In this document: piece by piece, positions 8,681 to 64,000 of the stretch
Layout of the letters: each line of letters starts with the position of its first letter
Position numbering within the stretch: the first letter of the stretch is position 1
Assembly (NCBI RefSeq): GCF_003627815.1
Contig: NZ_CP032698.1
Location: forward strand, 8,122,001 to 8,186,000
Source of the DNA: Streptomyces hundungensis
GTDB lineage: Bacteria; Actinomycetota; Actinomycetes; Streptomycetales; Streptomycetaceae
DNA: 64,000 bases
Direction of reading: 5' to 3'
Notes under the pieces: generated by a model
Told to the model about the DNA's origin: nothing
Database searches by the model: none
The model's input: only the letters and a program-made list of their open reading frames with translations
Position numbers and translations under genes: made by a program

Positions 8681-8715
8681 AGCCTTCATTGCCAGCCTCT
8701 CAAGGAGACGACTTC

Positions 8716-10911: not shown

Positions 10912-11040
10912 TCTCGCCCCGCGGGCCGCGCCCCTCCCGGGCGCAGCCCCGCATCGACTCCCCGTCGGGCCGGCCGAGCCTGCCCCGCACTCCGGCCCGG
11001 CGGGGCCTCCGCAGCGAACCGATCCGTCAGGAGCACATTC

Positions 11041-15205: not shown

Positions 15206-15236
15206 CCGGCGGCCCACCAGACAAGCGAGGACGAAG

Positions 15237-16205: not shown

Positions 16206-16298
16206 AGTCCGGCCGGCCCCCTCACCTACTGAGGTCCAGCCGACCCCGGCATTGACCGAAGTCCAGCCGGGCCCCGCTCACCGACTGAAGTCCAAAGG
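16194..16298 (+). repeat. Tandem 27-28 base repeat copying the 3' end of the diiron oxygenase gene
   Basis: Four imperfect units: 16194-16220, 16221-16247, 16248-16275 and 16276-16298. Each carries CTCACCGACTGAAGTCC or a close variant followed by GGCCGGCCCC-like sequence. The first unit contains the codons LTD-stop of the diiron oxygenase gene, so the array arose by duplicating the coding end into the spacer before the next gene. Confidence 0.8.
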
Positions 16299-16345
16299 TC
16301 TCGCGCCGCCCTCCCCCCCACCGCCCGAACGGAGACCAGCCCGCC

Positions 16346-42200: not shown

Positions 42201-45200
42201 ACCTGGGGGGTCGGGTCGCCGTAGGAGACCGCGGTGGGCAGCCCCCGCGCGTCGATGGTTGATGTGGCGGTCACGCCGCGGGCGTTGGTGATCCGGTTCC
42301 GGTTGCCATCGGCGTCGTAGCCGAAGGTCTTCTGGCGGCCGAGTGGATCGGTGACGGAGGTCTGACGGCCCGCGTCGTCGTAGCCGTAGGTGGTGGTGCG
42401 CCCGTTGGGGTCCGTGCGTGTGGTGAGGTCGCCGGCCGTGTTGTAGGTGTAGTTGGTCGCGGCGCCGTCCGGACCGGTGACCTTGCTGATCCGTCCGAGT
42501 TCGTCGTAGTCGGTCTTGGTGGTCCGCCCCAGCTCGTCCGTCGCGGAAGCCGCACGGTTCGCCGAGTCGTACGTGGTACTGCTGGTCTTGCCCAGCGGGT
42601 TGGTTGCTTTGGTCTGGTTGCCCGTGGGGTCATAGGTGTAGGAGGTGGTGAATTGAGCCGGGTCCGCCCCTGTCGCGTTGCCGCGGGGTTCGACCTCGGA
42701 GGCCAGGCGGCCGTCGGCATCGTAGGACCAAGTGCCCTTGAAGCTCAGCGGACTTGTCTGGCTGGTGCGGTTGCCGTCCGCGTCGTAGCCGAACGAGGTG
42801 ACCTTGCCGAGCGGGTCCGTGGAGGATGCGAGCAGCCCGGTGTCCGTGTAGGTGTGGCGGGTGACCTTGCCGAGCGGGTCTGTGGAGGTCAGGACGTTGT
42901 CGTTGCCGTCGTACGAGGTCCTCCTGACCTGCCCCAGGGCATTGGTGGTCGAAATTGCCCGGCCCAGCGCGTCGTACGCGGTGGTCGTCACGGCGCCTGA
43001 CGGATCCGTCACCGTCGTCCGGTTGCCATTGGCGTCGTAGCCGTAACTCGCCGTGAAGGCGGCCGCGTTGGCTCCGGACACGTTGCCCCGCGGCGAGACC
43101 GTACTGATCAGCCGGTTCGCCTTGTCGTAGGCGTAGGTGGTCTTGTTGCCCAGGGCGTCCGTGGCCGAGGCGAGGTTGCCGTTGGCGTCGTAGGTGCGGG
43201 TCTGGGCCTTACCGGCCGGATCGGTCATGCCGGTGAGGTGGCCGGAGGAGTCGTACGTGTACGTGGTGGTGCGGTTCGCCGGGTCCTTCGCAGAGGTGAG
43301 CCGCCCCGCGGGGTCGTAGCCGTAGGCCGTCGTGTGTCCCAGTGGGTCCGTCACGGAGGTGAGCAGTCCGCGCTCGTCATAGCTGTAGGCCGTGGTGAAG
43401 GCGTTCGGGTCGGCGTTCGCGACGTTGCCCCGGGGGTCGGTGATCGCGGTGACCCGTCCGGCGTTGTCGTAGCGGAAGGTCGACTTCTCGCCGAGGGGGG
43501 TCGTGACCGAGGTGCGGTTGCCGGAGCCGTCGTAGGCGTAGCTCGTCGTGTTGCCCCGCGGTGTGGTGACGCTCGCCAGGGCGCCGAGGGGCGAATAGGT
43601 GTAGGTGACCTTGCCCCCGGCGGGGTCAGTGCTGGAGGTGACCCGGTTCGCCGTGTCGTAGACGTACGTCGAGGTCTTGCCTCTGCTGTCGGTGTGGCTG
43701 GCGATGTTGCCCGCGGTGTCGTAGGTCCAGCTCTCCGTCAGCGCGGCGGAGGAAGGGGACTTCCGCGTGGTCATGCGACCAGCGGCGTCGTAGGTCATCT
43801 CGGTGGTGTTGCCGGCCGCGTCCGTGATCGAGACGGGGTGCAGATTCCGGTCGTAGCTGTACGAGACCTTCTTGCCGTACGGATTGACGCTCTCCAGCAG
43901 GACATTGCCTGAGTACACGTCGGTCCACACGCCGCCGTTCGGATCGGTCGCGTGGGACTCCCGCTGATTCTCCCAGGTGAAGGTCGACACCTTGCCGGAA
44001 CCGTCCGTCTGGGAGGCGACCCGGCCCGATGCGTCATAGGTGTTCGTGACCTTGCCGCCACCCCGCCCGGTGGCGGTGGCGACCCTCTTGTTCGCGTCGT
44101 AGGTGTAGGTGGCTTCCTTGCCGGCCTGATCCGTCACGGACGTGAGCAGCCCGCCGGTGTATCCGTAGCCGACCGACGTCCCGTCGGGCAGGGAGACCTC
44201 CGTCAACAGGCCTGCCGTGTCGAGCGTGAACAGCACGGTGCGTCCGGCGGCGTCCTTCACCGAGGCGAGACGGCCGGAGGAGTAGGCCAGCGTAAGGCCC
44301 TGTCCACTCCCGTCGGTGAGGGAGGTCAACTGGCCCGCTGTGCTGTATGTGCGCCGGGTACGGTCGGGACTCGTGACGGTGTACGTCGTCCCCGTCTTGG
44401 TGAGCTGGAGCGAGGATCCGCCCGGGCCGGCGTATGTTCCGCCCGCCTGCTCTTTGAACACCACCTGCGCGCCGTCAGCCTCGCGCAGTGTTGCCGTACT
44501 GCCTGCGGCGATCGTCAGCCTGGAGTCGAATGGAGTCGACCAGCCCCGGCCCAGGAGCCCGGCGTCGGCCGAGTTCGACCGGTAGGCCCGGTCCATGGAG
44601 AAGGGCGTGCCGACCCCGACGAGAGACGCGTCCGTGCTCCGGTCGTAGAACATGCCGGTGGCGGTGTTGACCGGATCCGCGCGGTACGCCTGCCCATAGC
44701 AACTGCACAGCCCGGCCTGCGTCCCAGGAATGTCCGGCGTGTAGAACGCCTCGACGAGGGGCGAGGTCGTGCCACCGGGGCTCGACGAACCGTCCGCGCC
44801 CATCAGGAAGATCCAGGCGTAGTACTTCTTGCCGTCCTGAAGGTGCCCGCCCAGCAGGGATGAACTCCACCAGAAGCACTGGTCAGCGGGGTACGCGTTC
44901 GACGCCCACCAGCCGTAGCACCAAGCCCCGTTCTCCAGGTACTTACCCGACGGGTCATCGGTCGCGCGCTTGATCTCCTGCTGGAGCACCGGGTTCTTCT
45001 GCTCGTCCATGACGTAGAGCCACAAGCCCGAAACGGACGACGCGGTGACGGATGAGAACTTCGTCTGTCCACCGATCGACAGCATTCCCGGATAGGCGCT
45101 CGCATAGGCGGAGACCCAGTCCGGGTTGGGCACCGCGGCCGCCGCACGCGACACCGAACCCGAAGTGGGCGCCGCAGCGGGACCGTTCTTCAGCGGCTTG

Positions 45201-45493
45201 TCCGGCTTGGGCGCCGGTACTGCGGGCAGCTTCGGTGCCTTGGGACGAACGAACTCGCGCATGGGCGAGTCGCTGCCTTGTGAGGCCTGCATCTGCGCCC
45301 TGCGCTGCGCCAAGGTCATTGCCTTGGGCGGCTTGGGCAAGTCCTTGTCGGTACGGATCGGCGCCGAGACAACCGCGCCCGGCGCGCCCCGGCCGGTCGT
45401 CGACCGTGCCCAAGCGGCGTCAGCGACCCCCACCGTGGTCAACAGTGCCGTGGTCAGGACGTAGACGATCCCGCGACGTGTGGATCTGAACAT
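39215..45493 (-). CDS. Secreted Rhs polymorphic toxin with an internal FG-GAP propeller and a Stv-like C-terminal domain
   Basis: 2092 residues from ATG 45493. Signal peptide VYVLTTALLTTVGVADAAWA, then a Pro-rich region and an Ig-like segment (about 130-270). YD/RHS repeats run from about 285 to 1160 (for example TYTYDANKRVATATGRGG, NTTEMTYDAAGRMTTRKSP). An FG-GAP/VCBS propeller sits at about 1165-1465 (GDLNGDGFTDVIRAD, GDFNKDGKQDFLAV, EFNGDGKLDVLAID with Ca-binding DxDxDG-like loops), then more YD repeats. The Rhs core YLRARNYDPSTGRLTAADP lies at about 1800, with ISAYAYANNSPTQYTDPTGR after it. A variable C-terminal domain (about 1965-2092) follows. Its VIAGHGVYV, AIEKGEKVKPTEIV and DVLKPNMGPVHIAICREHC resemble the Stv putative-adhesin domain found at the ends of polymorphic toxins. 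Sec-exported; the immunity-like gene follows directly. Confidence 0.92.
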   Translation of the reverse strand: MFRSTRRGIVYVLTTALLTTVGVADAAWARSTTGRGAPGAVVSAPIRTDKDLPKPPKAMTLAQRRAQMQASQGSDSPMREFVRPKAPKLPAVPAPKPDKPLKNGPAAAPTSGSVSRAAAAVPNPDWVSAYASAYPGMLSIGGQTKFSSVTASSVSGLWLYVMDEQKNPVLQQEIKRATDDPSGKYLENGAWCYGWWASNAYPADQCFWWSSSLLGGHLQDGKKYYAWIFLMGADGSSSPGGTTSPLVEAFYTPDIPGTQAGLCSCYGQAYRADPVNTATGMFYDRSTDASLVGVGTPFSMDRAYRSNSADAGLLGRGWSTPFDSRLTIAAGSTATLREADGAQVVFKEQAGGTYAGPGGSSLQLTKTGTTYTVTSPDRTRRTYSTAGQLTSLTDGSGQGLTLAYSSGRLASVKDAAGRTVLFTLDTAGLLTEVSLPDGTSVGYGYTGGLLTSVTDQAGKEATYTYDANKRVATATGRGGGKVTNTYDASGRVASQTDGSGKVSTFTWENQRESHATDPNGGVWTDVYSGNVLLESVNPYGKKVSYSYDRNLHPVSITDAAGNTTEMTYDAAGRMTTRKSPSSAALTESWTYDTAGNIASHTDSRGKTSTYVYDTANRVTSSTDPAGGKVTYTYSPLGALASVTTPRGNTTSYAYDGSGNRTSVTTPLGEKSTFRYDNAGRVTAITDPRGNVANADPNAFTTAYSYDERGLLTSVTDPLGHTTAYGYDPAGRLTSAKDPANRTTTYTYDSSGHLTGMTDPAGKAQTRTYDANGNLASATDALGNKTTYAYDKANRLISTVSPRGNVSGANAAAFTASYGYDANGNRTTVTDPSGAVTTTAYDALGRAISTTNALGQVRRTSYDGNDNVLTSTDPLGKVTRHTYTDTGLLASSTDPLGKVTSFGYDADGNRTSQTSPLSFKGTWSYDADGRLASEVEPRGNATGADPAQFTTSYTYDPTGNQTKATNPLGKTSSTTYDSANRAASATDELGRTTKTDYDELGRISKVTGPDGAATNYTYNTAGDLTTRTDPNGRTTTYGYDDAGRQTSVTDPLGRQKTFGYDADGNRNRITNARGVTATSTIDARGLPTAVSYGDPTPQVSATYDALGRRKTVTDATGTRTLAYDDAGRLTNVTPSAGKGAYSYTYDDAGQLTSRGIDYTAPQQLDWSGATRTTSGDLNGDGFTDVIRADATNGIRTFLGRSDGTFATGATLAGSGSGFQQMFTVEYTGDGKLDLLAIDKVTGHLLRYDGDGKGGFAAPYDLGAGWGPMTLVQGDFNKDGKQDFLAVSATANHLYFYPGSGGGGFGSRVDLGQGWANYRLIPIEFNGDGKLDVLAIDPSDGHLYLYPGNGSGGLGSRADLGGGWGAMQLVPGEFNNDGKPDFLAVDTANHRLRFYPGSGTGGFGAYVLQPDDWTSYGTPSVGRFGSTTTQGVVAPDTGNRLRKWNGDGKGVLTGAAVATGPSTGTKVTYGYDADGRRTSQSGSAGTLAYAYDPANHLTSSTLPAANGHVEDRAYDNAGRLTSVTNSKAGSALAGWQLTLDDAGRTTRTAVTRAGQAPSYQYYTYDSADRLLTDCASTAQAASCPDVADATTYTYDSVGNRKTQAKGGTTTTYSYDGADQLTATAAGSTNRTFAYDADGNQTSDGVNTFGYDAKNQLTSVTAGADTFTFAYDANGYRTKASKGTTALRTTSWDPNGPLATIGAEYDASGAMTAEYQYNPLGQPQTETVGGSGYYLHHDQIGSVTDVTDTAGAQRTRYTYSAFGEATKTDVAANPPPNPFTYTGAYTEPTTNSAGYYLRARNYDPSTGRLTAADPAPLPAGTPYISAYAYANNSPTQYTDPTGRTPDDPNDDHVESFGEGLKEFGKGFVQGLKMPFEFVGDIYDAFTGKNGGAGGFLDKYLPIRPAYRLYRAAEMFRDQGCEALYDVYSKVAADLTGQIAVTGLSGLRGWQRDAVRPPVRGHDTPTVGKGVGPAGKRIPGGRPDGQAVIAGHGVYVRGTGDTTMPSGTWGYFYVEDGVRLRQSVGLAIEKGEKVKPTEIVGPGKSLPNYTVKPGADLEMMSGSITVSKDTLLSDVLKPNMGPVHIAICREHCDPRR

Positions 45494-46142: not shown

Positions 46143-46361
46143 ATGACTAATCCTTTCGACGATGAGTCGGGGCGGTTCGTGACGTTGGTGAACGAGGAGG
46201 GCCAGTTCTCGCTCTGGCCGGCACACCTCGACATACCGGGTGGGTGGCGGGCCGACGGCCCGGAGGGGTCGCGTCAGGAGTGTCTGGACGCGATCGAGGG
46301 ATCCTGGAGTGACATGAGGCCCGCCAGTCTGGTCCGGGCGATGGAGGCCGACGCCGGGTAG
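46143..46361 (+). CDS. mbtH: MbtH-like protein
   Basis: 72 residues from ATG 46143 with GGGGGAG upstream. It is a textbook MbtH: MTNPFDDESGRFVTLVNEEG, then QFSLWPAHLDIPGGWRADGP and ECLDAIEGSWSDMRPASL, including the SLWP and the invariant Trp/Pro residues. MbtH proteins bind NRPS adenylation domains and are needed for their folding or activity. It is the first gene of the NRPS unit, 378 bases before the first NRPS. Confidence 0.97.
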   Translation: MTNPFDDESGRFVTLVNEEGQFSLWPAHLDIPGGWRADGPEGSRQECLDAIEGSWSDMRPASLVRAMEADAG

Positions 46362-46739
46362 CGCTGCGGGGCCCCGACGCTTCCCGAGCCGAACGGCGCC
46401 CCGGCGTTCCCGAGTACCGATTCCGCCTCCGCTTGAGCGAAATCGTTTTGAGCGTGCGCATGAGCTGGTCATGAAGACATGCGCGACCGCTCGTCCGCCC
46501 TTCACCGTGGCCTGTCCCGGATCACCGGTGCACCGCCCCGCTCGGAACCGCGGTGTGTGCGGTGGACCCCTCTCGTGCCGGATCACCCAACCGGTACGGA
46601 TCCTGGCTGACGCCCGGGTGTGATGGTGTTCCGTCCCGGTTCCAGCCCGACGCCGTCTCCGCTGTCGGCTCGGCTGTGGAGCGAAATCACCCGGGCTTTC
46701 TTTGCCGTCCCCAAAATTCTCCCCAAAGGTGTCTCCGGT
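46362..46739. other. Spacer between mbtH and the first NRPS
   Basis: 378 bases. The NRPS frame is open through its second half (from 46620) but those codons do not resemble a C-domain start. No gene seen; it could contain an internal promoter. Confidence 0.5.
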
Positions 46740-49700
46740 ATGCATGGAAACCGCTCACGCACGGTTCGGCAGGAGTCCTTCGAACTGACCGCCGCTCAAC
46801 AAGGCGTTTGGTACGGTCAGTTGGTCGACCCGGACAGCCCCAAATACAACATCGGCGAGTGCTTCGACATCCACGGCACTCTCGACGAGGAGTTATTCGA
46901 CGCCGCCGTAACTCGCGCCGCAGCGCTCTGCGACAGCCTCAACGTCGAGTTCGTCGTAGAGGACGTGGAAGTCCGCCAGCGCGTCGTCCGGGAGCCGGTG
47001 GCGGAGGCGGGCCGGCTCCGTGTGGTCGATCTGTCCGAGAGCGCCGATCCCCTGGCCGAGGCCGAGCGGTACATGGCCGACGACATGGTCACGGTGGACC
47101 GCATCGACGCCCCCCGCCACCACTTCGCGCTGTTACGCCTGGGCCCCCGGCGGCACTACTGGTACGTCCGCTACCACCACATCGCTGTCGACGGTCTCGG
47201 CGGCGCGGAGTTCGCCCGTACGGTGGCCGACCTCTACTCACGTGCAGTTCGCGGTGAGAACCTCGCCGAGCTCGAGCTGCCGTCCGCACCCTTGCACACG
47301 CTCGTAGCGGACGAGGCGGACTACCGGAACTCCGACCGGTACGAAACCGACCGTGCCTACTGGACCGGCAAATTCGGGGACTTGGCCACCGGCCCGTCCG
47401 CTACATCGGGCACGGCCGACGGCGGGGCCCTGCGCGGCGGCACGCTCATGCGCCGCCGCGCCGACTTACCCGCCCCGGCCGAGGTTGACGTACGGCTGCA
47501 CAGCGGCGAGACCCTGCCCGTCACCGTCCTGGACGACCTCCGCCGGCTCGCTGCGGGCCACCGCACCAGCTGGACCGCCGTACTCGTCAGCGCCGTCGCC
47601 GCCTACGTCGGCCGGGTCACGGGGGCGCGGGACGTCACCGTCGGCCTCGCCTCCAACGGCCGCCACGGCGGACTGCGCCACATCATCGGCATGACGGCCA
47701 ACATCCTCCCGCTGCGCCTGACCGTCACCCCGGACCTGACCGTCGGCGACCTCGTCCGCACGGTGGCCGCCGAGATGCGGGACGCCCTGCGCCACCGCCG
47801 CTTCTCTCGCGAACAGCTCGCCCGAGAACTGAACATGACCGACAGCGCGGCCCGCCTCACCGATGTCGTCGTCAACATCATGGGCTACGCCTACGACCTC
47901 GACTTCGGCGGCTGCCCCGCCTCCTCCCGCCTGCTCTCCATCGGCCCGGTCGACGACGTGTCCCTCTTCGTCTCCGAACGGTCCGAGGGCACGGGTCCGC
48001 TGATCGGGTTCGACACCAACCCCGCTCTCTACCACCCCCAAGACGTCCGGCTGCACCAGCACGCCGTCGTCTCCTACCTGTCGACTCTCGCCGCGGCGGA
48101 CGCCGACACCCCGCTGCGCGACCTGCCTCTCCTCGACGAGACCGCCGCGACCACGCTGCTCGCGCAGGGGCGCGGCGACGACTTGCCGGCGCACGTCGTG
48201 GCACGGAGCCTGACGGAAGCGTTCGAAGCCCAGGCTCGCCGGGCCCCCGAAGCCCCGGCCGTCGTGGACGGCGCCGTCACCCTCACCTACCGGGACCTGG
48301 CGCGCACGGCGCACGACCTCGCCGGGGCCCTGGCCGGCTGGGGAGTGGGTGCCGAGGACGCCGTCGGAGTCCTCGTGGGCCGCACGCCGGCGGTGGTCAC
48401 CGCGACGCTCGGCGCGGTAGGTGCGGGCGCGGCATACGTGCCGCTGGACGCCACGTGGCCGGCCGAACGGCTCGGCGACGTCGCCCATGTCGCCCGCCTG
48501 CGCGCCCTGGTGGTCGACGAGGCCGGCGCCGACCACCCCTGGGTGCGGGAGCAGTCCGCCACCCTGCCGGTCGTGGTCGTCGACGACCTCGGCGTCGTCG
48601 TGCGCGGCGCCCCCGTGAGACACGGCCCCCTGCCCTCGGCGACCCGCGGTGACCAGCTCGCGTACGTGATGTTCACCTCGGGCTCCACCGGCCTGCCCAA
48701 GGGCGTTGGCATCACCCACGCGGACGTCCTGGCACTGGCTGTCGACGCCGCTTGGACGGACGGCGTGTCGGACGCCGTGCTGCTCCACTCCGCCTACGTC
48801 TTCGACGCCTCCACCTTCGAGATCTGGGTCCCCCTCCTGAACGGCGGGAAGGTCGTCGTGGCGCCCGGCGGCGTCCTCGAAGCGAGCGGCCTCGAGGACA
48901 TGGTGACCCGGCACGGCGTGACCGCGGCATTCCTGACCACGGCTCTGTTCAACGTGGTGGCCGAGGAGCGCCCGGCGGCGTTCACGGGATTGCGCCTGGT
49001 CGCCGCGGGAGGTGAGACCGCCTCCGCCGAGCTGATGCAGCGGGTGGCCGCCGCCGCGCCGGGCACGCGTGTCCTGCACGTGTACGGCCCCACCGAGACC
49101 ACGACCTTCGCCACACGTCACCCGGTCACTCCCGACACGACGGGTGTGCCCCCCATCGGCCGTGCTCTCGACGGGATGCGTCTGTACGTGCTCGACGACA
49201 CGCTCGCGATGGTTCCGCCGGGTGTCGTGGGGGAGTTGTACGTGAGCGGCCCCGGCGTCGCCCGCGGCTACCAGGGCCGGGCCGCGCTGACCGCCACCCG
49301 GTTCGTCGCCGACCCGTACGACGCGCACGGGCGCCGGATGTACCGCACCGGCGACCTCGTGCGCTGGACGGCGCACGGTGACATCGAATACGTCGGGCGC
49401 GCCGACGGGCAGGTCAAGTTGCGCGGGTACCGCATCGAGCCCGCCGAGATCGAGAACACGCTGCTCGCCGACCCGGAGGTGCGGGCGGCCTGTGTTCTGG
49501 TCCGTGAGGACGTGCCCGGCGACCGGCGGCTCGTCGCCTATGTCGTGCCGGCGCCCGGGTGCCGCCCGGACGACAGCGCGCTGGCCCGCCGCGTGGGACG
49601 CGCGCTGCCCTCCTACATGGTGCCCTCCGTCTTCGTCCTCCTGGACGCACTGCCCCTGAACGCCAACGGAAAGGTGGACCGGCGCGCCCTGCCCGTCCCC

Positions 49701-52700
49701 CAGGTGACGACGGCAACCGGCCGTGCGCCGCGCACGGCACAGGAAGAGGTGCTGGCCGGCCTGTTCGCCGACGTCCTGGGCGTCCCGGCCGTCGGTGTGG
49801 ACGACAACTTCTTCTCGCTGGGCGGACATTCGCTGCTCGCGGCCCGCCTCGCCGGCCGGGTGCGCACGGCTCTGGGCGCGGAGGTCGAGCTGCGGACACT
49901 CTTCGACCACCCGACGGTCGCCCAGTTGGCCGTCGCCCTCGACACCGGCGCGGCCGCCCGACCCGCCCTCGTGCCGCAGCCGCGACCCGAAGCGATTCCG
50001 CTGTCCTTCGCGCAGCAGCGCCTGTGGTTCCTCAACCGTGTCGAGGGGCCCAACGACACCTACAACGTCCCGCTCGTCCTCGAACTCGACGGACAGCTCG
50101 ACACGGACGCCCTGCGCGGCGCGCTGGCCGATGTGATCGCCCGGCACGAAAGCCTGCGGACCGTCTTCGTCGAACGGGACGGCGTCGCCCACCAGGAGGT
50201 CCTCGACGCGAGCGTCGCCGCATCGCTCGCGTCGCTGACCGTCGAGTCGCCGACCGCCGGACAGTCCGCCGATGCCTGGGTGGAGGAGACGGTGCGCCGC
50301 CTGACCGCCGCGCCCTTCGACCTCGACGGCGATGTTCCCGTCCGCGCCCACCTGCTTCGGCCGGCCCCCGGCCGGCACATCCTGGTCCTCGTCCTGCACC
50401 ACGTCGTCGCCGACGGCTGGTCCCTCGCTCCGCTCAGCCGCGACCTAGGCGCCGCCTATCGGGCCAGGAGGGCGGGCACGGGCACGCCCGACTGGCCCGC
50501 GCTGACGGTGCAGTACGCCGACTACGCGTTATGGCAGCGCGCGCTGCTGGGCGACATCGACGATCCCGGAAGTCTGGCCGGCAAGCAGCTCGCCTTCTGG
50601 CGGGAGGCACTGCACGGCACCCCGAACCTGCTCGAACTCCCCCTCGACCGGCCGCGGCCCGCTGTGCCGAGCCATCGGGGCGACGCCGTCCCCTTCGAGT
50701 TGCCCGCAGCCGCGCACAGCGCCCTCGTGCGGCTCGCTCGTGCCACCGGCTGTACCCCGTTCATGGTGCTCCAGGCGGCCCTTGCCGTCACGCTGCACGC
50801 CCATGGCGCGGGTACGGACATTCCCCTGGGCACCGCGGTGGCCGGGCGCACCGACGAGGCTCTCCACGACCTGGTCGGATTCTTCGTGAACACCGTCGTC
50901 CTGCGCACCGACCTGTCCGGCGCCCCCACCTTCCGCGCGCTGCTCGATCGGGTGAAGCAGTTCGACATCGCCGCCTTCAGCCACGGTGGCATCCCCTTCG
51001 AACGGCTCGTGGAGGAGATCAACCCCGAGCGGTCCGGTGACCACCACCCGCTGTTCCAGACCATGCTGGTCCTCCAGAACCAGGAACGGGTGGCCCTCGA
51101 CCTGCCCGGCGTACGCGTCCAAGACCGGTCGCGGCACACCGGCATCAGCAAGTTCGACCTGACGTTCTCGCTCGTCGAGTCCGTCGAGACCGCAGGACCC
51201 GGCGAGTGCGCGTCGGCAGGCTCACCGGGCGGCATCGGTGGATATCTGGAGTACGCCACCGACCTCTTCGACGCCGCCACGGCCCGCGCCCTGTGCGAGC
51301 GCTTCGCCCGCATCCTGACCCAGGCCGTGGCCGACCCCGACCGTCCCGTCGGCGACCTCGACCCGCTCGCGCCCGGCGAGCGACAGCACCTCCTTGCCCA
51401 GGGACGCGGAACGGAGCGCCCCGTGCCGGCCCGGACCGTACCCGAAGCGGTCCGGGAGTGGGCCGCGCGGACGCCCCTCGCGGTCGCGGTGCGCGACGCG
51501 GACACGAGCCTCACGTACGCCGAACTCGATGCCCGCGCCGATGCCGTCGCCCATCTGGTGCGCGAGCGGGGTGCGGGCCGCGAGGACCAGGTGGCCCTCG
51601 CCATCCCGGCGTCCGTGGACGGCGTCGTGGCCATGCTGGGCGTTCTGCGGGCCGGCGCCGCCTATCTGCCGATCGACCCGGAGTACCCCGCCGCCCGCAT
51701 CCGGCACATGCTGGAAGACGCCCGGCCCGCCCTGCTCCTCACCACGACGGAGCTTCAGGCAGCACTGCCGTCCGGTGACCGGCCGTGGGTCGCACTCGAT
51801 GCCCCCGGCAGCCGTGCCGTCAGCCCGGGCGTGCTCACGCCGGACGCGCATCCGGCGGACCCCGCGTACGTCATCTACACCTCGGGGTCCACCGGCCGCC
51901 CCAAGGGCGTGGTCGTGCCCCACGTAGCCCTGGCCAACCACATGGAATGGATGGCCCGGCACCTGGCGCTCACCCCGGACGACCGTGTCCTGGCCCGCAC
52001 CTCCACCAGCTTCGACGCCTCCGGGTGGGAACTGTGGCTGCCGCTCACCAACGGCGCCGAGGTCTGCGTGCTGCCGCACGACGCCAACCGGGATCCGGAG
52101 GCCCTCGTCTCCTGGATGAGCCGATTCGACGTCACCGTCGCCCAGTTCGTGCCCTCGCACCTGACCCTCGTCCTCGCCGAGGCGGCTCACGCCGCGCCGC
52201 TGCCCGCGCTGCGCGCCGTGCTGTGCGGCGGAGAACCCCTGCCCCGAGCGCTCGCCGACCACGTCACCGGCGTGTGGGGGACCGAGGTGCACAACCTCTA
52301 CGGCCCCACAGAGGCGACCATCGACGCGACGGCGCACCGAGTCGGCGGTCCGTGGGACTCCGGCCCGTCCGACACCGTACCGATCGGCCGCCCCGTCGAC
52401 ACCATGCGCGCCTACGTCCTCGACGACAGCCTGCGACCCGTACCGCCCGGCGTCATCGGAGAGCTCTATCTGTCCGGTCCCAACCTCGCCCGCGGCTATC
52501 TGCGCCGCCCGGGGTTGACCGCCGCCCGCTTCGTCGCGGACCCCTTCGGCCCCGCCGGAACCCGCATGTACCGCACGGGTGACCTCGTGCGATGGAACCG
52601 GCAGGGTCTGCTCGACTACGTGGCCCGCGGCGACGACCAGGTCAAGCTGCGCGGGTTCCGCATCGAGCTCGGTGAGATCGAGGCCGCACTCCTGGCGCGC

Positions 52701-55700
52701 CCCGGTGTCACGGCCGCCCGCGCCGTGATCCGCGAGGACGTACCCGGGCAGCGCCGTCTCGTCGCCTATGCCGTCACCGGCGACCCGGCCCTGCGTCCCT
52801 CCGTCCTGATCGACGACCTCTCCCGGACGCTCCCGCACTACATGGTGCCCGGCGCCGTCGTCCTCCTGGACGACCTGCCGCTCCTGCCCAACGGGAAGGT
52901 CGACCGGCGCGCCCTGCCGCAACCCGATCCGGAGGCCGAGCTCACCACCGGCCCCGCACAGCGCGACCTCCGGGAGGACCTGCTGGCCGGCATCCTCGCC
53001 GACGTGCTGGGCCGCTCCGCGGTCGGACCGCACGACAACTTCTTCGACCTCGGCGGGCACTCGCTCCTCGCCATGCGCGTCGTCAGCCGGGTCCGCGCCG
53101 TCCTGGGCGCCGAGATGCAGGTGCGCACCCTGTTCGAGCACCCGACCGCGGCCGGCCTGGCCCGCGCCCTCGACGCGCCGGGCCGGGCCCGTCCGCCCGT
53201 CGTGCCCGCGGCGGAGCGGCCCGACCCGATGCCGCTGTCCCCCGCGCAACAGCGTCTGTGGTTCCTCAACCGGTTCGAAGGCCCCAGCTCCACCTACAAC
53301 ATTCCGCTGGTCCTCCAACTCGCCGGACCGCTGGACACCGACGCCCTGCGCGCCGCCCTGTGTGACGTCGTGGAGCGGCACGAGACGCTGCGCACCGTCT
53401 TCCCCGAACGGGACGGCGTCCCCTGCCAGCACGTCCTTCCCACCGGCGAGGCCGCTCCCGGCCTGCCCGTGGTGAGCATCGCGCCCACGGACCTGGAGGC
53501 CGAAGTTCTGGCCGCCGTACAGCAACCGTTCGACGTCGTCACCGACCTGCCGCTGCGCGCGCTGCTCCTGCGGAGCGCGCCCGACCGCCACGTCCTGGTT
53601 CTCGTCCTGCACCACATCGCGGGCGACGGCTGGTCCCTGGCCCCGCTCGCCCGTCACCTCGGTGACGCCTACCGGGCCCGGCTCGCGGGCCGCGCACCCG
53701 AGCTGGACGCCGGCGCCCCGCTCCAGTACGCCGACTACACCCTGTGGCAGCACGCCGCCCTCGGGGACGGCATCGAGGAGCACGGCGTCCTGCGGCAGCA
53801 GCTCGACCACTGGCGCGCCGCCCTGGCCGGGCTGCCCGGCCTGATCGACCTGCCGCTGGACCGGCCGCGCCCGGTCACCACCGACCCGCGGGGCGCCGTT
53901 CACACCTTCGAGGTGCCCCCCGCCCTGCACGCCGGGCTCGTGCGGCTGGCGAGGGAGTCGGGCAGCAGCCTGTTCATGGTCCTCCAGGCGGCCGTCGCCA
54001 CCCTGCTCCACCGGCACGGAGCGGGCGACGACATCCCGCTCGGCTCTCCCGTCGCCGGTCGCACGGACGAGGCCCTGGAGGACATGGTCGGGTTCTTCGT
54101 CAACACGCTCGTGCTGCGCACCGACCTCTCCGGCACGCCGACCTTCCGTCAACTCCTCGAGCGCGTCCGGGAGTTCGACCTGGCGGCCTACGCTCACCAG
54201 GACGTCCCGTTCGAGCGACTGGTCGAGAGCGTCAACCCCGTCCGGGCCCGCAACCACCACCCGCTGTTCCAGACGATGATCGTCCTACAGAACCAGGAGA
54301 CCGCCCGCCCCGACCTCCCGGGCGTCACGGTCGAGGACCGGCTCGTCCACAACGGCCTGAGCAAGTTCGACCTGACCTTCGCGTTCACCGAGGAGCCGGA
54401 CCTGGGCGGCATGGCCGCCGGGATCGAGTACGCCACCGCCCTGTTCGACCGGACCACCGCGGAGGCCTTCGCGGGCCGTCTGGTGCGCCTGTTGGAGCAG
54501 GCCGTCGCCGACCCCGGTCGGCCGCTGGCGGCCTACGACCTGATGTCCCGGGAGGAGCACGGCCGTATCGCGTACTGGGGAGCCGGCCGCGCGCTGCCCG
54601 CGGACACCGCGGACGACACCCTGCCCGCACGCTTCGCGGCCCAGGCGCGCCGCACACCGGACGCCGTGGCCGTCACCGACGGCACCACCGGCCTCAGCTA
54701 CGCCGAACTCGACCGGGTCTCCGCCGAGTTGGCCCGCGCACTGGCGGGCCACGGCGTCGGTCCCGAGTCAGGTGTCGGCGTACTGCTCACGCGGTCACCC
54801 GGTGTCGTGGCGGCGTCTCTCGGGACGGTCCGAGCCGCCGGCGCGTACGTACCGCTGGACGCACGCTGGCCCGGGGAACGGCTCGACCAGGTCGCCGGAC
54901 TGGCGGCCGTGCGGGTCCTCGTCGTCGACGAGGACACCCTCACGTCCCCGTGGGTGACCGAGGCGGCCCGCCGCCTGCCCGTCGTCGTCATCGACCGGGC
55001 CGGCCGCATCCTGCGGGGGCAGCCCGAACTCTCGGGCCGCGCCCCGGCAGCCGCGCCGCGTCCGGGGAGTCTCGCCTACGTGATGTTCACCTCCGGCTCG
55101 ACGGGCGTGCCCAAGGGAGTCGGCGTCACCCACGCCGACGTGATCGCGCTCGCGGCCGACTCCGCCTGGCAGGGCGGGGCCGCCGACGCGGTCCTGATGC
55201 ACTCGGCCTACGTCTTCGACGCCTCCACCTTCGAGATGTGGGCGCCCCTGCTGAACGGCGGCCGGGTGGTCGTCGCACCGGACGGCGTGCTGGAGGCCAG
55301 GGTCCTCGACGACGCCGTTCACACGCACGGGGTGACCGCCGTCTTCCTGACCACCGCCCTGTTCAACGTGATCGCCGAGACCGATCCGGGTGCCTTCGCC
55401 GGCCTGCGGCTCGTGTGCGCCGGCGGAGAACTGGCCTCCCCGGACGCCATGCAGCGCGTCGCGGGCCTCGCGCCCGGTCCGCGCGTCCTGCACGTGTACG
55501 GCCCCACCGAGACGACCACCTTCGCCACCCGCCACCATGTGGAGGCGGATCTGCCGCCGGGACCGCCGCCCATCGGGCGCCCGCTGGACGGCATGCGCCT
55601 GTACGTCCTCGACAGCTCCCTCGGCCCGGTCCCGCCGGGCGTGGTGGGCGAGTTGTACCTCGCGGGGCGCGGCGTGGCACGCGGCTACACCGGGCTTCCG

Positions 55701-58700
55701 GCCATGACCGCCACGCGCTTCGTGGCCGACCCGTTCGAAGGAGCCGGCGGGCGCATGTACCGCACCGGAGATCTCGTGCGGTGGACCCGCGACGGGCGGA
55801 TCGAGTACGTCGCGCGCGCCGACGGACAGGTGAAGCTGCGCGGCTACCGCATCGAACTCGGCGAGATCGAGGGCGTGCTGGCCTGCCAGGAAGGCGTGGC
55901 CGACGCGTTCGCCGTCGTCCGCGAAGAACCCTCCGGCGACCGGCGGCTCGTCGCGTACGTGGTGCCGGCCGCCGGCGCCCTTCCCGAAGCCGGCGAGCTG
56001 GCGAAGGCGGTCGCCCGGTCCCTGCCCGCCTACATGGTGCCGTCCGCGTTCGTCCTGCTCGACGCGCTCCCGCTGACCGTCAACGGCAAGGTGGACCGGC
56101 GCGCCCTGCCCGAGCCCGAGCACCATGTGTCGGCCCGCGGGCGCGCCGCTCGCACCGCCCGCGAGGAGATCCTCTGCGGACTCTTCGCCGACATCCTCGG
56201 TCTCACCGGGACGGGCGTCGACGACGACTTCTTCGCCCTGGGCGGCCACTCCCTGCTCGCCACCCGTCTGACCGCACGCATCCGGACCGTGCTCGGGGTG
56301 GAGCTCCAGGTCAAGGCCCTCTTCGAGCACCCCACCCCGGGCGCGCTCGCCGCCGTGCTGGACGACGCCGAGACGGCCAGGACGCCACTGGTACGTGTTC
56401 CTGACCGGCCCGATCCGCTGCCGTTGTCCTTCGCTCAGCGGCGCCTGTGGTTCCTCAACCGCTTCGAGGGACCCAGCGCCACCTACAACGTGCCGCTCGT
56501 GCTGCGCCTGGCCGGCCCGCTCGACCGCGGGGCGTTGGAGCAGGCCCTCGAAGACGTTGTCGGACGGCACGAGAGCCTGCGCACCGTCTTCCCCGACACC
56601 GACGGGGTGCCGCGCCAGGTGGTCCGCGACGCCCATGACGCCGACCTCGACCTGACGCCCCGCGACACCGACCCGGCCCTGCTCGACGAGGTGCTGGCCG
56701 CCGTGGTGGCCCACGCCTTCGACATCGCCACCGAGCTTCCCGTACGGGCCCGGCTGGTGCGGCTGGGGGACCGGGACCACGTCCTGGTCCTGCTCGTCCA
56801 CCACATCGCCGGCGACGGCTGGTCCCTGGCCCCTCTCGCCCGCGACCTGGCCGAGGCCTACCGGGCCCGCGCCGGGGGCATCGAACCCGCCTGGTCGGAA
56901 CTCGGCGTCCAGTACGCCGACTACACCCTGTGGCAGCGCGCGCTGCTCGGCGACGAGGACGACCCGTCCAGCCCGGCCGCCCGGCAGCTCGACTTCTGGC
57001 GCACCGCGCTGGCCGGCGCGCCCGACCTGCTCGAACTGCCCTGCGACCGGCCGCGCCCTGCGGTCACGGAACACCGCGGCGACGCCTTCGCCTTCCACGT
57101 GGACGCCGACACCCACCGGGCCCTCGCCGACCTCGCCCGGACCCGCGGAGCCAGCCTCTTCATGGTGCTCCAGGGCGCGCTCTCGGTGCTCCTGTCCCGG
57201 CACGGCGCCGGTGCGGACATTCCCCTGGGCACCGCGGTGGCCGGGCGCACCGACGAGGCCCTGGACGATCTGGTGGGCTTCTTCGTCAACACCCTCGTGG
57301 TGCGGACCGACCTGAGCGGCGACCCGACCTTCGGCGAAGTCATCGACCGGGTGCGGGAGTTCGACCTGGCCGCCTACGCCCACCAGGACGTGCCGTTCGA
57401 GCGGCTCGTGGACGCCCTCAGCCCGGACCGGGTCCAGAACCGCCACCCCCTGTTCCAGACCATGCTGGTGCTACAGAACCAGTCAAGCCCCACGGTGGAC
57501 CTGCCCGGCCTCGCGGTGACGGAACAGCCCGTCCACACCGGCATCAGCAAGTTCGACCTGACCTTCACCTTCTCCGAAAAGCGCGACGGCGCGGGCCAAC
57601 CCGCCGGCTTGGAAGGCGTCCTGGAGTTCTCCACCGAACTCTTCGCCCACACCACTGCGCACACCTTCGCCGCCCGGCTGACCCGCCTGCTGGGCACCCT
57701 CGCCGCCGATCCATCCGTGCGCGTCCACACCGTCGACGTCCTGGACCCGGCCGAGCTGCGCGGTCTGGACCGGGCCGCGCACGGCCCGGTCACCACCGTC
57801 GCCTCGCGCACGGCGCCCGAGGCGTTCCGTGCGCAGTGCGAGCGGACGCCCGGGGCGGTCGCCGTACGCGACGCCGTACGCGACCTCACCTTCGGTGAAC
57901 TCGACGCGCTCTCCGACCGCTTGGCGCACCACCTGCGTGACCGGGGCGTCAGGCGTGGCGATCTGGTGGCCCTCGCCCTGGAGGGCACCGCCGACCATGT
58001 CGTCGCGACGCTGGCGGTGACCAAGGCCGGTGCCGCGTATCTGCCCGTCGATCTGGACTATCCCCAGGAGCGCGTCAAGTACATCTTCGACGACGCCCGC
58101 CCGGTCCTGCTCCTCACACACAGCAGCGCCCGCCCCGAAAAGCACGGTCTTTCCGTGCCCTGCCTGGCACTCGACGACCGGACCGCCTGGTCCACGCATC
58201 GCGCGGAGCCCTGGGCGGCACCGCACCCCGGCGACGCGGCGTACGTCATCTACACCTCGGGGTCCACCGGTCGCCCCAAGGGCGTCGTCGTCACCCACGC
58301 CTCGCTGGTCAACCACATGGCGTGGATGGCCGGCCACCTCGGCCTGACCGGCGCGGACCGGGTGCTCGCCCGCACCTCGCCGAGCTTCGACGCCTCGGTC
58401 TGGGAGACGTGGCTGCCGCTTCTGCACGGCGGATCGACCTGCCCCGTGCCGCCGGCCCTCAACCACGATCCCGCGGGGCTGCTGGACCGCCTGCGCACCA
58501 CGGGCGCGACGATCGCGCAGTTCGTGCCCTCCCACCTCTCGCTCATCCTCACCGAGACCGCCCGCGACCCGGCCCCCGTCGCCCTGCGGGCCGTCCTGTG
58601 CGGCGGCGAACCCCTGCCCCCGTCCCTGGCTCAACGTGTGCGGAGCGCCTGGGACGTGGCGGTCCACAACCTGTACGGCCCCACCGAGACGACCATCGAC

Positions 58701-61148
58701 GCCACCGCCCACCATTACAACGCCGCGGAGACCGCGGCGTCGGTGGGGGAGGGCAGCGTGCCGCTGGGCCGGCCCGTGGACAACACACGCGCCCATGTCC
58801 TGGACGCCGCTCTGCGGCCGGTGCCGCCGGGCGTCACCGGCGAGCTGTACATCGCGGGTGACGGCCTGGCCCGCGGATACCTGCGCCGCCCCGGACTGAC
58901 CGCCGCCCGGTTCGTCGCCGATCCCTACGGTCCCCCCGGCAGCCGCATGTACCGCACGGGCGACCTCGTACGGCGGGACAACGAGGGCCTGCTCACCTTC
59001 GTCTCCCGGGCCGACGACCAGGTCAAGCTGAACGGTTTCCGTATCGAGCTGGGCGAGATCGAGGCCACTCTGGCCGGCCTCGACGGCATCGCCGCCGCCT
59101 GCGTACTCGTGCGGGAGGACCGGCCCGCTGAACGCCGCCTGGTCGCCTACACCGTTGCCGACGGCGGTCCTGCCGCGCTCCCCTCCGACGCCGAACTGCG
59201 CGCCCGGCTCGGCTCGTCCCTGCCGCCGCACATGGTCCCCGCCGTCTTCGTCGCCCTCGACTCACTGCCGCTGCTGCCCAACGGCAAGGCCGACCGGCGG
59301 GCGCTGCCCGCACCCGAGCGACCCCGCACCGCCCGGCGGGGAGGGGAGCCCCGCACCCCGCAAGAACGCGTCCTGTGCGAGGTGTTCGCCTCCGTGCTCC
59401 ACACCCCCGCCGTCCGCACCGACGACGACTTCTTCGCCCTCGGCGGCGACAGCATCCTGTCGATCCAGCTCGTCAGCCGGGTGCGTGAGGCCGGCCTCGG
59501 CATCTCCCCGCGAGACGTCTTCGTCCACCGCACACCGGAGGCCATCGCCGCCGTCGCCGAGGCGCTCGGCGGCCAAACCGCGAGCCCCGTCGAGGACGGC
59601 GTCGGCACGATGCCGCCGACCCCCATCGCCGCCTGGTTCCTGGAGCGGACCGGAGCCACCGACGGCTACAACCAGTCCGGGGTACTTCGCACCCCCGCCG
59701 GCGCGGACGAGGACAGCCTCGCCGCCGCCCTGCAACGACTCCTGGACCACCACGACATGCTCCGCCTGCGCACCGGACGCACGCCCGACGGCGACGTCGT
59801 CCTCGAAGCCCTGCCGCCGGGCACCGTCACGGCACGACGTCGCCTCACCCGTATCGACGTCTCGGGCCTCGGCGCGGACGCCGTCCGTGCCGCCCTCACC
59901 GAAGCGGGCGAAGGGGCCCGCGAGCGGCTCCGGCCGGGGGAGGGGAACGTGTTCGAAGCCGTCTGGGCCGACGCCGGGCCCCACGCGCGCGGGCGGCTGC
60001 TCCTCGTCGTACACCACCTCGCCATCGACGCGGTGTCCTGGCGCATCCTCGCCGCGGACCTGGCCACTGCCTGGCAGGCGGTCACCGGAGCGGCGCCCGA
60101 CGGTGAGGGGCTCACGGCAGCGGCACTGCCCGCCGTCGCCACCCCCTACCGGCACTGGGCACGGCTCCTGGCCACCCAGGCGCACAGCCCCGCGCGGGAG
60201 GCGGAACTCGCCCTGTGGGAGACGGTGACGAGCACCCCTGACCCGCCGTTGGGACGGCGGCCGCTCGATCCCGGTCTCGACACCGCCGACCGCACCAGCA
60301 CCCTCGTCACCCACCTGCCCACCGCCGCCACGACATCCCTGCTCACCAGGGTGCCCGCCGCCTTCCACGCGGGGGTGGACGACGTCCTGCTCACGGGCCT
60401 CGCACTCGCCGTACGGTCCTGGCGCGCCGGACAGGACCCCGGCGACGGCACCGAGCGGGCCCCCAGCGGCGTCCTTCTCCACCTGGAGAGCCACGGCCGC
60501 GAACAGATCAGCGACGACATCGACCTGTCCCGCACGGTGGGCTGGTTCACCAGCCTCTACCCGGTCCTCCTCGACCCCGGGGCCCTCGATGCCCGCAACC
60601 CGGACCGCTTCGACGCGGCGCTGGTCGACCGCGCCCTCAAACGCGTCAAGGAACAGTTGCGGGGCGTCCCCGACCACGGCGTCGGCTTCGGCATGCTGCG
60701 CCACTGCAACCCCGCCACCCGCTCCCGCCTGGCCGCCGCACCCGAACCCCAGATCGGCTTCAACTACCTCGGGCGCTACACCGCCCCGGGGGAGGCGGCG
60801 GACGGCGGCACAGGCGCCGGCGCCGACTGGGAGGTGCTGCTCGACGGCGGAGGGCCGCGCAGCCAGGACCCGGACATGCCCGTCCACCACGTGATCGACA
60901 TCAACGCGCACACCGAGGACCGGGCGGACGGACCGCACCTGGTGACCCGCTGGACCTGGCCCGGCGACCTCCTCAAGGAGGAGGACGTCGAAGCGCTCTC
61001 CGAGGCCTTCACGCGCGCACTGCACGCGATCGCCGAACACGCCGGACGGCCCGACGCGGGCGGCTACACACCGTCCGACCTTCCCCTGGTCTCCCTCGAC
61101 CAGGCCCAGATCGACCGACTTCAGAACAAGTGGGGTGGACGCAAGTGA
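46740..61148 (+). CDS. Four-module nonribosomal peptide synthetase: C-A-T, C-A-T, C-A-T, C-A-T-E
   Basis: 4802 residues from ATG 46740 (AAAGG upstream). C1 about 15-440 (HHIAVDG); A1 489-987; T1 with phosphopantetheine Ser1031 ([11 protein letters not shown]). C2 1086-1540 (HHVVADG); A2 1567-2060; T2 Ser2108. C3 2162-2607 (HHIAGDG); A3 2629-3125; T3 Ser3171. C4 3226-3673 (HHIAGDG); A4 3688-4190; T4 Ser4238 in GGDSILS, the form that precedes epimerases; E 4291-4770 ([10 protein letters not shown]). A core motifs are intact ([33 protein letters not shown]). Read against GrsA, the pocket residues are D-A-F-F-V-A-V-T-F-K for A1 and A3 and D-A-W-Q-L-G-L-I-D-K for A2 and A4. The latter is near published Gln codes; the former is non-standard, perhaps a nonpolar residue. 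Predicted product segment: X-Gln-X-D-Gln. C2-C4 begin [17 protein letters not shown], the LCL type; C1 differs ([16 protein letters not shown]). MbtH is encoded upstream, and the next NRPS overlaps by four bases. Confidence 0.97.
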
Positions 61149-64000
61149 CCGGGTTCCAGCTGGAGGACGTACTGCCGCTGACGCCGTTGCAGGCCGGCAT
61201 GCTCTTCCACGCGCTGTACGACTCCGACGCCGTCGACGTCTACACCGCACAGTTCGTCTTCGACCTCGAAGGACCCGTCAGCCCCACCGCGCTGCGGGCC
61301 GCCGTCGCTGGCCTGCTGCGCCGCCACGCCAATCTGCGGGTCGGGTTCCTCCACGAGGACCTGGACCAACCCGTGCAGGCCGTGGCCGCCGAGGTGCCGA
61401 CGCCGCTGGAAGAGCTCGACCTGACCGGCGCGGACGCCGCGGGCACGGCGCAGGAACGTCTCGCCGCGTTCCTCGCCGCCGACCGGACCCGCCGCTTCGA
61501 CCTCACCACCCCGCCGTTGCTGAGGTTCACCCTGGTGCGCACCGCGCCGCGGCGCTCCCGGCTGGTGATGACGAGCCATCACATCCTCCTCGACGGCTGG
61601 TCGATGCCCCTGCTCGTCCGTGAACTGTTCGAGCTGTACGCCGCCCACGGCGACGACAGCGCCCTGCCGCGCGTCGCCCCCTACCGCACCTATCTCGCCT
61701 GGCTGGCCGGGCAGGACCGCACGGCCGCCCTGGACGCCTGGCGCGCCGCCCTGGCCGGTATCGAGGCGCCCACCCTGCTCGCCGGACGCGCGGTCACGGA
61801 CGCGCCGCGTTCCGGCGACCTTCCGCGCACCCTCGTCCTCGACCTGGACCCGGCCACCACGAGCCGGCTGCGCGAGACGGCCCGTGCCCATCGGCTGACC
61901 CTCAACACCCTGGTCCAGGGCGCCTGGGGGCTGCTTCTCGGACACCTCACCGGACGCCCCGACGTGCTGTTCGGCACCACCGTCTCAGGTCGCCCGCCGG
62001 AGATCCCCGGCATCGAGACGATGGTCGGCCTGTTCATCAACACCGTGCCCGTCCGACTGCGCCCCGAGCCCGGTGAGACCCTGGCCGCACTGCTGAGCCG
62101 GCTCCAGGAGGAACAGGGCCGGCTGCTCGGCAGCCAGCACCTGGGCCTCACCGAGATTCGCGGCACCACCGGCCTGGACGAACTCTTCGACACGCTCGCC
62201 GTGTTCGAGAACTACCCGATGGACGCGGAGGCGCTGCGCACCGCGCAGCAGGCACTGCCCGACCTCGCCGTCACCGGGTTCAGCGGCACCGACGCGGCCC
62301 ACTACCCCCTCACCCTCACCATCGCTCCCGGCGATGCCCTGCGCATCACCTTCGGCTACCGCGAGGCCGTACTGGACCGCGATGAAGTGGCCCGCATCGT
62401 CGCCCGGACGCGCCGCATCCTGACGGCGATGGCGGCCGGACTCGAGCGCCGCGCCGACGCCGTCCCGGTCCTCCTGGACGGCGAGGAGAACGAACTCCTG
62501 CGTCAGGGCCGCGGCGCCCCGCTCCGCGAGGACCCGACCACCGTGAGCATCCCCGATGCCGTCGCCCAGCATGCCGCCCGCCACCCGCACGCGGTCGCGG
62601 TGTCCGGCGCCGACGGACAGCTCACCTACCGGCAACTCCTCGACGCCTGCGACGAAACGGCACGCGCGCTCACCGGGCTCGGCGTCCGCGCGGAGGACGG
62701 CGTCGGCATCCTCACCGGCCGCTCCACGGCCCAGGTCACCGCCTCCCTGGCCGCCCTGCGCGCAGGAGGCGCCTATGTGCCCCTCGACCCTCGATGGCCC
62801 GCCGAACGCCTCGGCCGCGTCGCCGAGGTGGCCTCCCTGCGCGCCCTGGTGGTCGACGCCACCACCCGTACACACCCGTGGGTGCGCGCGCTCGGCCCCG
62901 ACGTCGCCGTACTCACCGTCGACGCCGACGGCCGCGCCGAACAGGGCTCCTCGGCCGCCCGCGGACCCCTTCCCACTGTGCCCGGCGGCGACCGGCTGGC
63001 GTACGTGATGTTCACCTCCGGCTCCACCGGCCTGCCCAAGGGCGTCGGCGTCACCCACGCCGACATCACGGCCCTCGCCCGCGACCGGACGTGGGCGGAC
63101 GGAGCGTCCGAGGCGGTTCTGCTGCACTCCGCGTACGTCTTCGACGCCTCCACCTTCGAGTTATGGGTCCCGCTCCTGACGGGCGGGCGCGTCGTGGTGG
63201 CCCCCGAGGGCACCCTCCAGCCCGCCGTCCTGCGCGACCTGGTCGCCCGGCACGGCGTGACCGCGGCGTTCCTGACGACCGCCCTGTTCGACGTGATCGC
63301 CGAGGCCGACCCGGGCGCCCTGGGCCTGCTGCGCCTGGTGGCCTCAGGTGGGGAAGCCGCCGCACCCGGCGTCCACCAACGCCTTGCCGCCGCACACCCC
63401 GACACCGTCTTCCTCAACGCCTACGGCCCCACCGAGACCACCACCTTCGCCACCCTGCACCACGTACGCGCCGACGACGCCCCCGGACAGGCTCCCGCCA
63501 TCGGGCGCCCCCTCGACGGCATGCGCGGCTACGTCCTGGACCGCGCGCTGCGCCCCGTCCCGACCGGGGCCGAGGGCGAGCTGTACATCGCGGGCCCCGG
63601 CGTCGCCCGCGGCTACCTCGGACGCCCGGACCTCACCGCCACCCGGTTCGTCGCCGACCCGTTCGCGGCCACCGGCGAGCGGATGTACCGCACCGGCGAC
63701 CTCGTGCGCCGGGACGCCGACGGCGTCCTGCACTACGTGGCCCGCGCCGACCAGCAGATCAAACTCCGCGGCCACCGCATCGAACCCGGCGAGATCGAGA
63801 TGGTGCTCTGCGCCGACCCGTCCGTACGGTCCGCCTGCGTCCTGGTCCGCGAGGACCTGCCCGGCGACCGCACCCTGACCGCCTACGTCGTTCCGGTGCC
63901 AGGCCACCTTCCGGACCCCGACCGGCTCCGCGCGCACATCGGGCGCCACCTTCCCGCCTACATGGTGCCGACCGCCTTCCACACCCTCGACGAGTTTCCG
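61145..64000 (+). CDS. Second nonribosomal peptide synthetase, partial (C-A...)
   Basis: Starts at GTG 61145, overlapping the previous stop as GTGA, so the two subunits are translationally coupled. 952 residues are visible with no stop before base 64000. The C domain (about 5-440) opens [19 protein letters not shown] and has [10 protein letters not shown], the DCL type that accepts a D-configured donor and so fits the E domain ending the previous protein. The A domain (from about 475) has [39 protein letters not shown] and [10 protein letters not shown]. Its pocket reads D-A-F-F-V-S-A-T-F, a variant of the A1/A3 pocket. The window ends near A8-A10 ([15 protein letters not shown]); the T domain, further modules and any thioesterase lie beyond. 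Confidence 0.95.

Follow-up and report, generated by a model that had tools for sequence, protein, structure and literature searches.

Which peptide is made by the nonribosomal peptide synthetase (NRPS) line at the end of a 64,000-nucleotide stretch of Streptomyces hundungensis DNA, and does this peptide belong to a described class? The stretch, hereafter the window, comprises bases 8122001-8186000 of the 8.39 Mb chromosome, and a preliminary description of it had seen five modules in a strictly alternating X-Gln-X-(D-)Gln-X' order, adding that no described peptide with such logic was known. We instead favor, with a probability of roughly 0.8, a six-module line with reductive release, whose product would be an acyl-hexapeptide Phe-aldehyde, most likely of the flavopeptin family.

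The line past the end of the window

Two genes encode the line, NRPS1 with the domain order C-A-T-C-A-T-C-A-T-C-A-T-E and NRPS2 with the order C-A-T-C-A-T-R. NRPS2 runs on to window-equivalent position 68743 (G000:C1:8190743), so that the window cuts it inside A5; beyond base 64000 the same open reading frame (ORF) continues without a stop through the rest of A5 and then through T5-C6-A6-T6-R. NRPS2 ends in a thioester reductase domain (PF07993, E 2.5e-61; TIGR01746, E 2e-96, 323.5 bits with the cut-off at 213.35), which is placed after the last T domain and has its STT and YxxxK (T-Y-K) motifs intact, as is expected of reductive release. The sixth module and the reductase past the window change the class of the product. 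With regard to the gene borders, the ATG at 46740 is the likely start of NRPS1 and is preferred over the GTG at 46620, and the GTG start of NRPS2 at 61145 overlaps the NRPS1 stop, the same start point being present in three NRPS2 relatives (P0005, P0083, and P0084). The features are:

46143..46361, + strand: mbtH-like gene, 72 amino acids, A-domain partner protein (PF03621 E 6.3e-24 in Pfam; the NCBIfam search of the product gave no match)
46740..61148, + strand: NRPS1, modules 1-4 and E (longest ORF from GTG 46620)
46770..48089 (approx.), + strand: C1, starter-type condensation domain (PDB matches; HHxxxDG intact)
48213..49691 (approx.), + strand: A1, DAFFAGVTFK, probably Ile/Val-like (alignment to 1AMU)
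49749..49931, + strand: T1 (PF00550 best stretch, residues 1044-1104)
49977..51314 (approx.), + strand: C2, LCL-like (~60% identity to C3 and C4)
51444..52916 (approx.), + strand: A2, DAWQLGLIDK, probably Gln (alignment to 1AMU)
52977..53165 (approx.), + strand: T2
53229..54560, + strand: C3, LCL-like (PF00668, residues 2204-2647)
54627..56099 (approx.), + strand: A3, DAFFCGVTFK, probably Ile/Val-like (alignment to 1AMU)
56166..56354 (approx.), + strand: T3
56397..57719 (approx.), + strand: C4, LCL-like
57828..59309 (approx.), + strand: A4, DAWQLGLIDK, probably Gln (alignment to 1AMU)
59367..59555 (approx.), + strand: T4, GGDS form
59592..60989 (approx.), + strand: E domain (HHxxxDxxSW, ESHGRE, and GFNYLG present)
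61145..64000 in the window and on to the end given above, + strand: NRPS2, modules 5-6 and reductase
61163..62500, + strand: C5, DCL-like, after E (PF00668, residues 12-457)
62546..64000, last residues past 64000, + strand: A5, DAFFAGATFK (alignment to 1AMU)
past 64000, + strand: T5-C6-A6 (DAWTVAAVCK)-T6-R, with R at L006:7649-8707 (PF07993, TIGR01746)

The line opens with a starter-type C domain and has no A-T before C1, an arrangement typical of acyl-initiated NRPSs. C1 is only 24-25% identical to the other C domains of the line, and in the PDB it is matched best by 7c1k/7c1h/7c1p and CDA synthetase I (4jn3/5du9), with ObiF1 and EntF coming next. Of these, 7C1H and 7C1K are listed for a paper on how starter C domains bring about lipoinitiation (PMC7804268). 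Residue 1 would therefore likely carry an N-acyl cap, either fatty or possibly aryl, and such a cap also speaks against a head-to-tail imine cyclisation. At the other end of NRPS1, after module 4, lies a C-terminal domain with the three motifs that mark E domains, and hence the epimerase that the preliminary description had placed after the second Gln is borne out. The DCL condensation domain that it expected next is probably C5: this domain is 26.5-28.5% identical to C2-C4 and C6, its best PDB matches are PvdL, McyB, bacitracin synthase 3, and SrfA-C, and its place after E together with its motif suggests the DCL type.

Pocket codes and the history of the modules

The codes were read by aligning the A domains to 1AMU, anchored by a GrsA piece identical to 1AMU residues 234-335. 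At position 278 of A2 and A4, where the aligner chose the neighboring F, we took Q, in accordance with the known Gln code, and the final K of each code was read from the sequence. In this register A1 is DAFFAGVTFK and A3 is DAFFCGVTFK, whereas both had previously been reported as an identical DAFFVAVTFK; likewise, A5 is DAFFAGATFK and not DAFFVSATF. The discrepancy lies in residues 299/301, which are A/G in A1, C/G in A3, and A/G in A5, instead of the V/A and V/S seen before, and the apparent identity of A1 and A3 arose because the three domains had been read one residue out of register at these positions. By contrast, the Gln-like DAWQLGLIDK shared by A2 and A4 had been read in the right register, and A6 is DAWTVAAVCK.

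Published codes serve to assign residues to these pockets. DAFFLGVTFK stands at the Ile/Val positions of cyanopeptolins (passages of PMC2533009) and for L-Ile/D-allo-Ile in passages of PMC13122637; Table 2 of PMC2866473 gives DAWQFGLIDK and DAWQTGLIDK as Gln codes; and the lunaemycin line, as described in passages of PMC9866976, contains a DAWTVAAVCK predicted to take Phe. On the strength of these anchors we infer that A1, A3, and A5, in which 299 is a small residue, are Ile/Val-like, that A2 and A4 take Gln, and that A6 takes Phe. The alternation of hydrophobic residue and Gln would thus extend through module 5, as had been proposed, but it ends there, as the sixth module would bring in Phe and give X-Gln-X-Gln-X-Phe.

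It had also been suggested that the line arose by duplication of a two-module unit. With 8 outgroups, IQ-TREE places A1, A3, and A5 in one clade and A2 and A4 in another, each with a support of 100, and in an A tree of 7 genomes every module position forms its own clade, so that the duplications would predate the sampled species. The trees therefore support a duplication of the A types that appears to be ancient. The two-module block, however, finds no such backing. The expected pairing of C2 with C4 was not recovered in the C trees (FastTree; 2, then 7 outgroups), the first of which (2 outgroups, with the labels C5-C7 unreliable) joined C2 to C3 at 0.70. Furthermore, the sister pair within A1/A3/A5 varies with method and outgroup: A1 and A5 are sisters at 1.0 in FastTree with 2 outgroups and at 45 in IQ-TREE with 8, and A1 and A3 are sisters at 0.73 in FastTree with 8. 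Pairwise identity is 63.9% for A1-A3 and 60.0% for A1-A5.

Relatives, predicted product, and alternatives

A scan with the reductase region returned 51 loci, 22 of which, assigned by name to Streptomyces or Kitasatospora, share 65-89% identity, while the remaining 29 are 29-39% identical, save one 25-residue match at 72%. Among 294 other Streptomyces genomes sampled (5 candidates scored per genome), 20 carry a reductase 58-75% identical, the other listed matches reaching at most 47%; in an order-wide sample of 244 other genomes (7 candidates scored per genome), 7 have a match at E<=1e-120 and 58-75% identity, six from the same genus and one from another genus of the family. In a protein search, scoring was confined to the 7983 candidates with the most shared words; 169 hits reached E<=1e-100, and the best 120 of the 169, which are those listed, are 67-90% identical. 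S. pratensis, for instance, has two NRPS2 relatives, P0083 and P0084, 71-72% identical over the reductase end, and P0083 represents 188 member sequences.

For NRPS1, 18 of the 22 Streptomyces or Kitasatospora loci were compared (the shorter L012, L014, L021, and L025 were left out), with the relatives' domains mapped by tblastn to our own. Some codes are partial where loci end or where frames are broken (L087, L089/L011, and L026/L074), and these breaks may be draft errors. The starter C was found in 18/18 relatives at 64-92% identity, and A1-A4 follow in unchanged order in all of them with nearly constant codes. A1 reads DAFFAGVTFK in 14 of the 18 (the others being DAYFAGVTFK, DAFFSGVTFK, DAFFAGATFK, and one partial) and A2 reads DAWQLGLIDK in 15 (the others DAWQLGLVDK, DAWQLGLIEK, and one partial). 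In A3, position 299 is Cys throughout (one partial read), and A4 is DAWQLGLIDK in 8, DAWQAGLIDK in 6, DAWQLGLVDK in 2, DAWQLGLITK in 1, and partial in 1. In the 22 second-gene loci, A5 was recovered 19 times (15 DAFFAGVTFK, 3 DAFFAGATFK, 1 partial) and A6 20 times (17 DAWTVAAVCK, 2 DAWTAAAVCK, 1 partial). Overall, the A domains of the main matches are 65-93% identical to ours, with pocket codes nearly fixed per module. The watched catalytic residues are likewise intact in C1 (HHxxxDG) and E in 18/18, in R in 22/22, and in C5 in 18/22 (of the other four, 3 were not recovered and 1 was not read). The order of genes and domains, the codes, the unbroken motifs, and their conservation are all legible in the DNA. 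The line is real, intact, conserved, and of a known kind.

From this we propose the following model. C1 would put an acyl group on residue 1, and modules 1-6 would add (Ile/Val-like)-Gln-(Ile/Val-like)-D-Gln-(Ile/Val-like)-Phe, in which the E domain of module 4 would make the D-Gln and C5 would act as the matching DCL domain when NRPS1 passes the chain to NRPS2. Finally, the terminal reductase would free the chain as an aldehyde, acyl-(Ile/Val)-Gln-(Ile/Val)-D-Gln-(Ile/Val)-Phe-aldehyde, which would place it among the covalent protease inhibitors. Predicted in this model are the identity of each residue, the nature of the acyl group, an aldehyde end in place of an alcohol, the activity, and the link to the flavopeptins.

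The name flavopeptin presumably derives from S. flavogriseus. The flavopeptin NRPS has reportedly been studied by Chen et al. 2013 (JACS 135:10449). Streptomyces peptide aldehydes come from R-domain NRPSs and target serine and cysteine proteases, and the flavopeptins fall into the acyl-capped group of them, according to passages of PMC10548850. Passages of PMC8009326 trace six flavopeptins to an NRPS cluster in Streptomyces sp. NRRL F-6652 and report that the proteasome is inhibited at its chymotrypsin-like and caspase-like sites by two of the six, at low micromolar concentrations. The domain architecture of our line, with its starter C and R, fits an acyl-capped peptide aldehyde from a Streptomyces R-domain NRPS, and no other Streptomyces peptide aldehyde with these residues was recognised among the papers listed by the literature search. 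Membership in the flavopeptin family, which is known here through descriptions in reviews, is probable, the common ground being Streptomyces, a terminal reductase, and acyl-capped aldehydes, the last of which are predicted for our line.

Other known systems can be set beside the line. The closest solved relatives of C1, from CDA synthetase I (4jn3) and of the 7C1H/7C1K type, resemble the line in C1 only, and these lines make other lipopeptides. Imine macrocycles need a free N-terminal amine, and ureido peptide aldehydes are short, chymostatin and MAPI ending in phenylalaninal. The ureido aldehydes (antipain, chymostatin, MAPI, elastatinal) share the aldehyde end but are ureido-capped, as passages of PMC10548850 state, whereas the starter-type C1 and six modules seen here would speak against such a product. 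Likewise, nostocyclopeptide and aureusimine share R-domain release (passages of PMC8949500), but for our peptide the N-terminus is expected, from the starter C, to be capped.

Several points weigh against our interpretation. The product is a prediction from genes, and its likeness to the flavopeptins is one of description. A1, A3, and A5 differ from DAFFLGVTFK at 299, and A5 also at 322, and the literature search for exact codes found none with those of A1/A3/A5 or with DAWQLGLID. C1 matches ObiF1 and EntF too, whose C domains take aryl acids, so that the cap could be aryl instead of fatty acyl. No acyl-activating gene common to the relatives' flanks was found with our crude gene calls, and the acyl donor would thus come from elsewhere. 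Sequence does not reveal if reduction ends at the aldehyde, and the review PMC8949500, in the passages concerned, treats further reduction to the alcohol as general. Moreover, our own genome holds elsewhere another TIGR01746 domain above the cut-off (G000:C1:7637999-7638913, within a 4133-residue open frame). In favor of our interpretation, the single match over the cut-off in S. papulosa (L022 = G304) is the reductase of the line.

The alternative that survives best is that the same line makes an acyl-hexapeptide of a family distinct from the flavopeptins, and hence a new peptide aldehyde. This gains from the descriptive nature of the flavopeptin comparison and from the failure to find the exact A1/A3/A5 codes in the literature, but it is unlikely, as flavopeptins are themselves described as acyl-capped aldehydes of a Streptomyces reductase-NRPS (passages of PMC8009326, PMC4071589, and PMC10548850), and as S. 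pratensis, whose strain ATCC 33331 was formerly S. flavogriseus (passages of PMC4239341), carries a relative of NRPS2. In a more specific and slightly more doubtful form, a widespread, frozen cassette of mbtH and two NRPSs would make an undescribed alternating-Gln acyl-hexapeptide Phe-aldehyde, not a flavopeptin, perhaps aimed at the proteasome or at secreted proteases, without an adjoining dedicated immunity, transport, or regulatory gene. A second reduction, yielding a lipopeptide alcohol that is no protease inhibitor, is improbable: although R-domain aldehydes are generally reduced again, the same passages of PMC8949500 name the flavopeptins as an exception, and Streptomyces peptide aldehydes are reported from R-domain NRPSs (passages of PMC10548850). 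Last, a line that ends at A5 or in a thioesterase and makes a new X-Gln-X-Gln-X' peptide, as the stop of the window inside A5 might suggest, has next to no chance and is refuted by the unbroken ORF past 64000, whose A6 and R occur in the relatives too.

Flanking genes and meaning of the line

In our genome, 33 ORFs were called in the 17 kb upstream and the 22 kb downstream, namely mbtH, the NRPS2 tail, and 31 others, and these flanks were compared with 15 upstream (~15 kb; from 15 of the 18 NRPS1 relatives) and 18 downstream (5-10 kb; the four shorter loci named above left out) flanks of relatives, genes being called by a crude GC3 rule. The mbtH gene, which the preliminary description had passed over, lies upstream of NRPS1 in 15/15 of the relatives' flanks at 65-97% identity, and none of the 31 other ORFs has a relative in more than 2 of them. 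When the relatives are compared with one another, a handful of further ORFs turn up in 4-6 flanks, including one that is antisense to the NRPS1 start. As no other flank ORF recurs throughout, mbtH-NRPS1-NRPS2 is the single unit found common to all.

Adjoining the line at 39215-45493 (- strand) is an RHS-repeat protein with 24 RHS repeat stretches, FG-GAP repeats, DUF6531, and a C-terminal Stv-type domain, of which no relative was found in the relatives' flanks. Downstream of NRPS2, at L006:10334-11344 (- strand), lies a regulator of the DJ-1/PfpI and AraC type, and no relative of it was found adjoining the line in the relatives. Farther off, three genes at 13688-17956 (+ strand), encoding an FAD/NAD-dependent oxidoreductase, an AurF-type N-oxygenase (PF11583 E 2e-91), and an Fe-S/FAD oxidoreductase, look like part of another biosynthetic locus, and the two large proteins encoded in tandem at 8689-13224 (+ strand) contain F5/8 type C domains, with a weak match to glycoside hydrolase 2 in one of them.

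The novelty once claimed for the line came mostly from the cut window and the register slip, and it is weakened by the R domain, by the reductase in 20/294 Streptomyces genomes, and by the flavopeptins as a described class. The case illustrates how a product class already described can seem novel when a pocket code is read once out of register and the window is cut. What had been an unknown alternating peptide can now be put to the test as a predicted acyl-X-Gln-X-D-Gln-X-Phe aldehyde made by a small cassette, and if the link to the flavopeptins is true, the conservation described here would reveal the spread and the constancy of that family.

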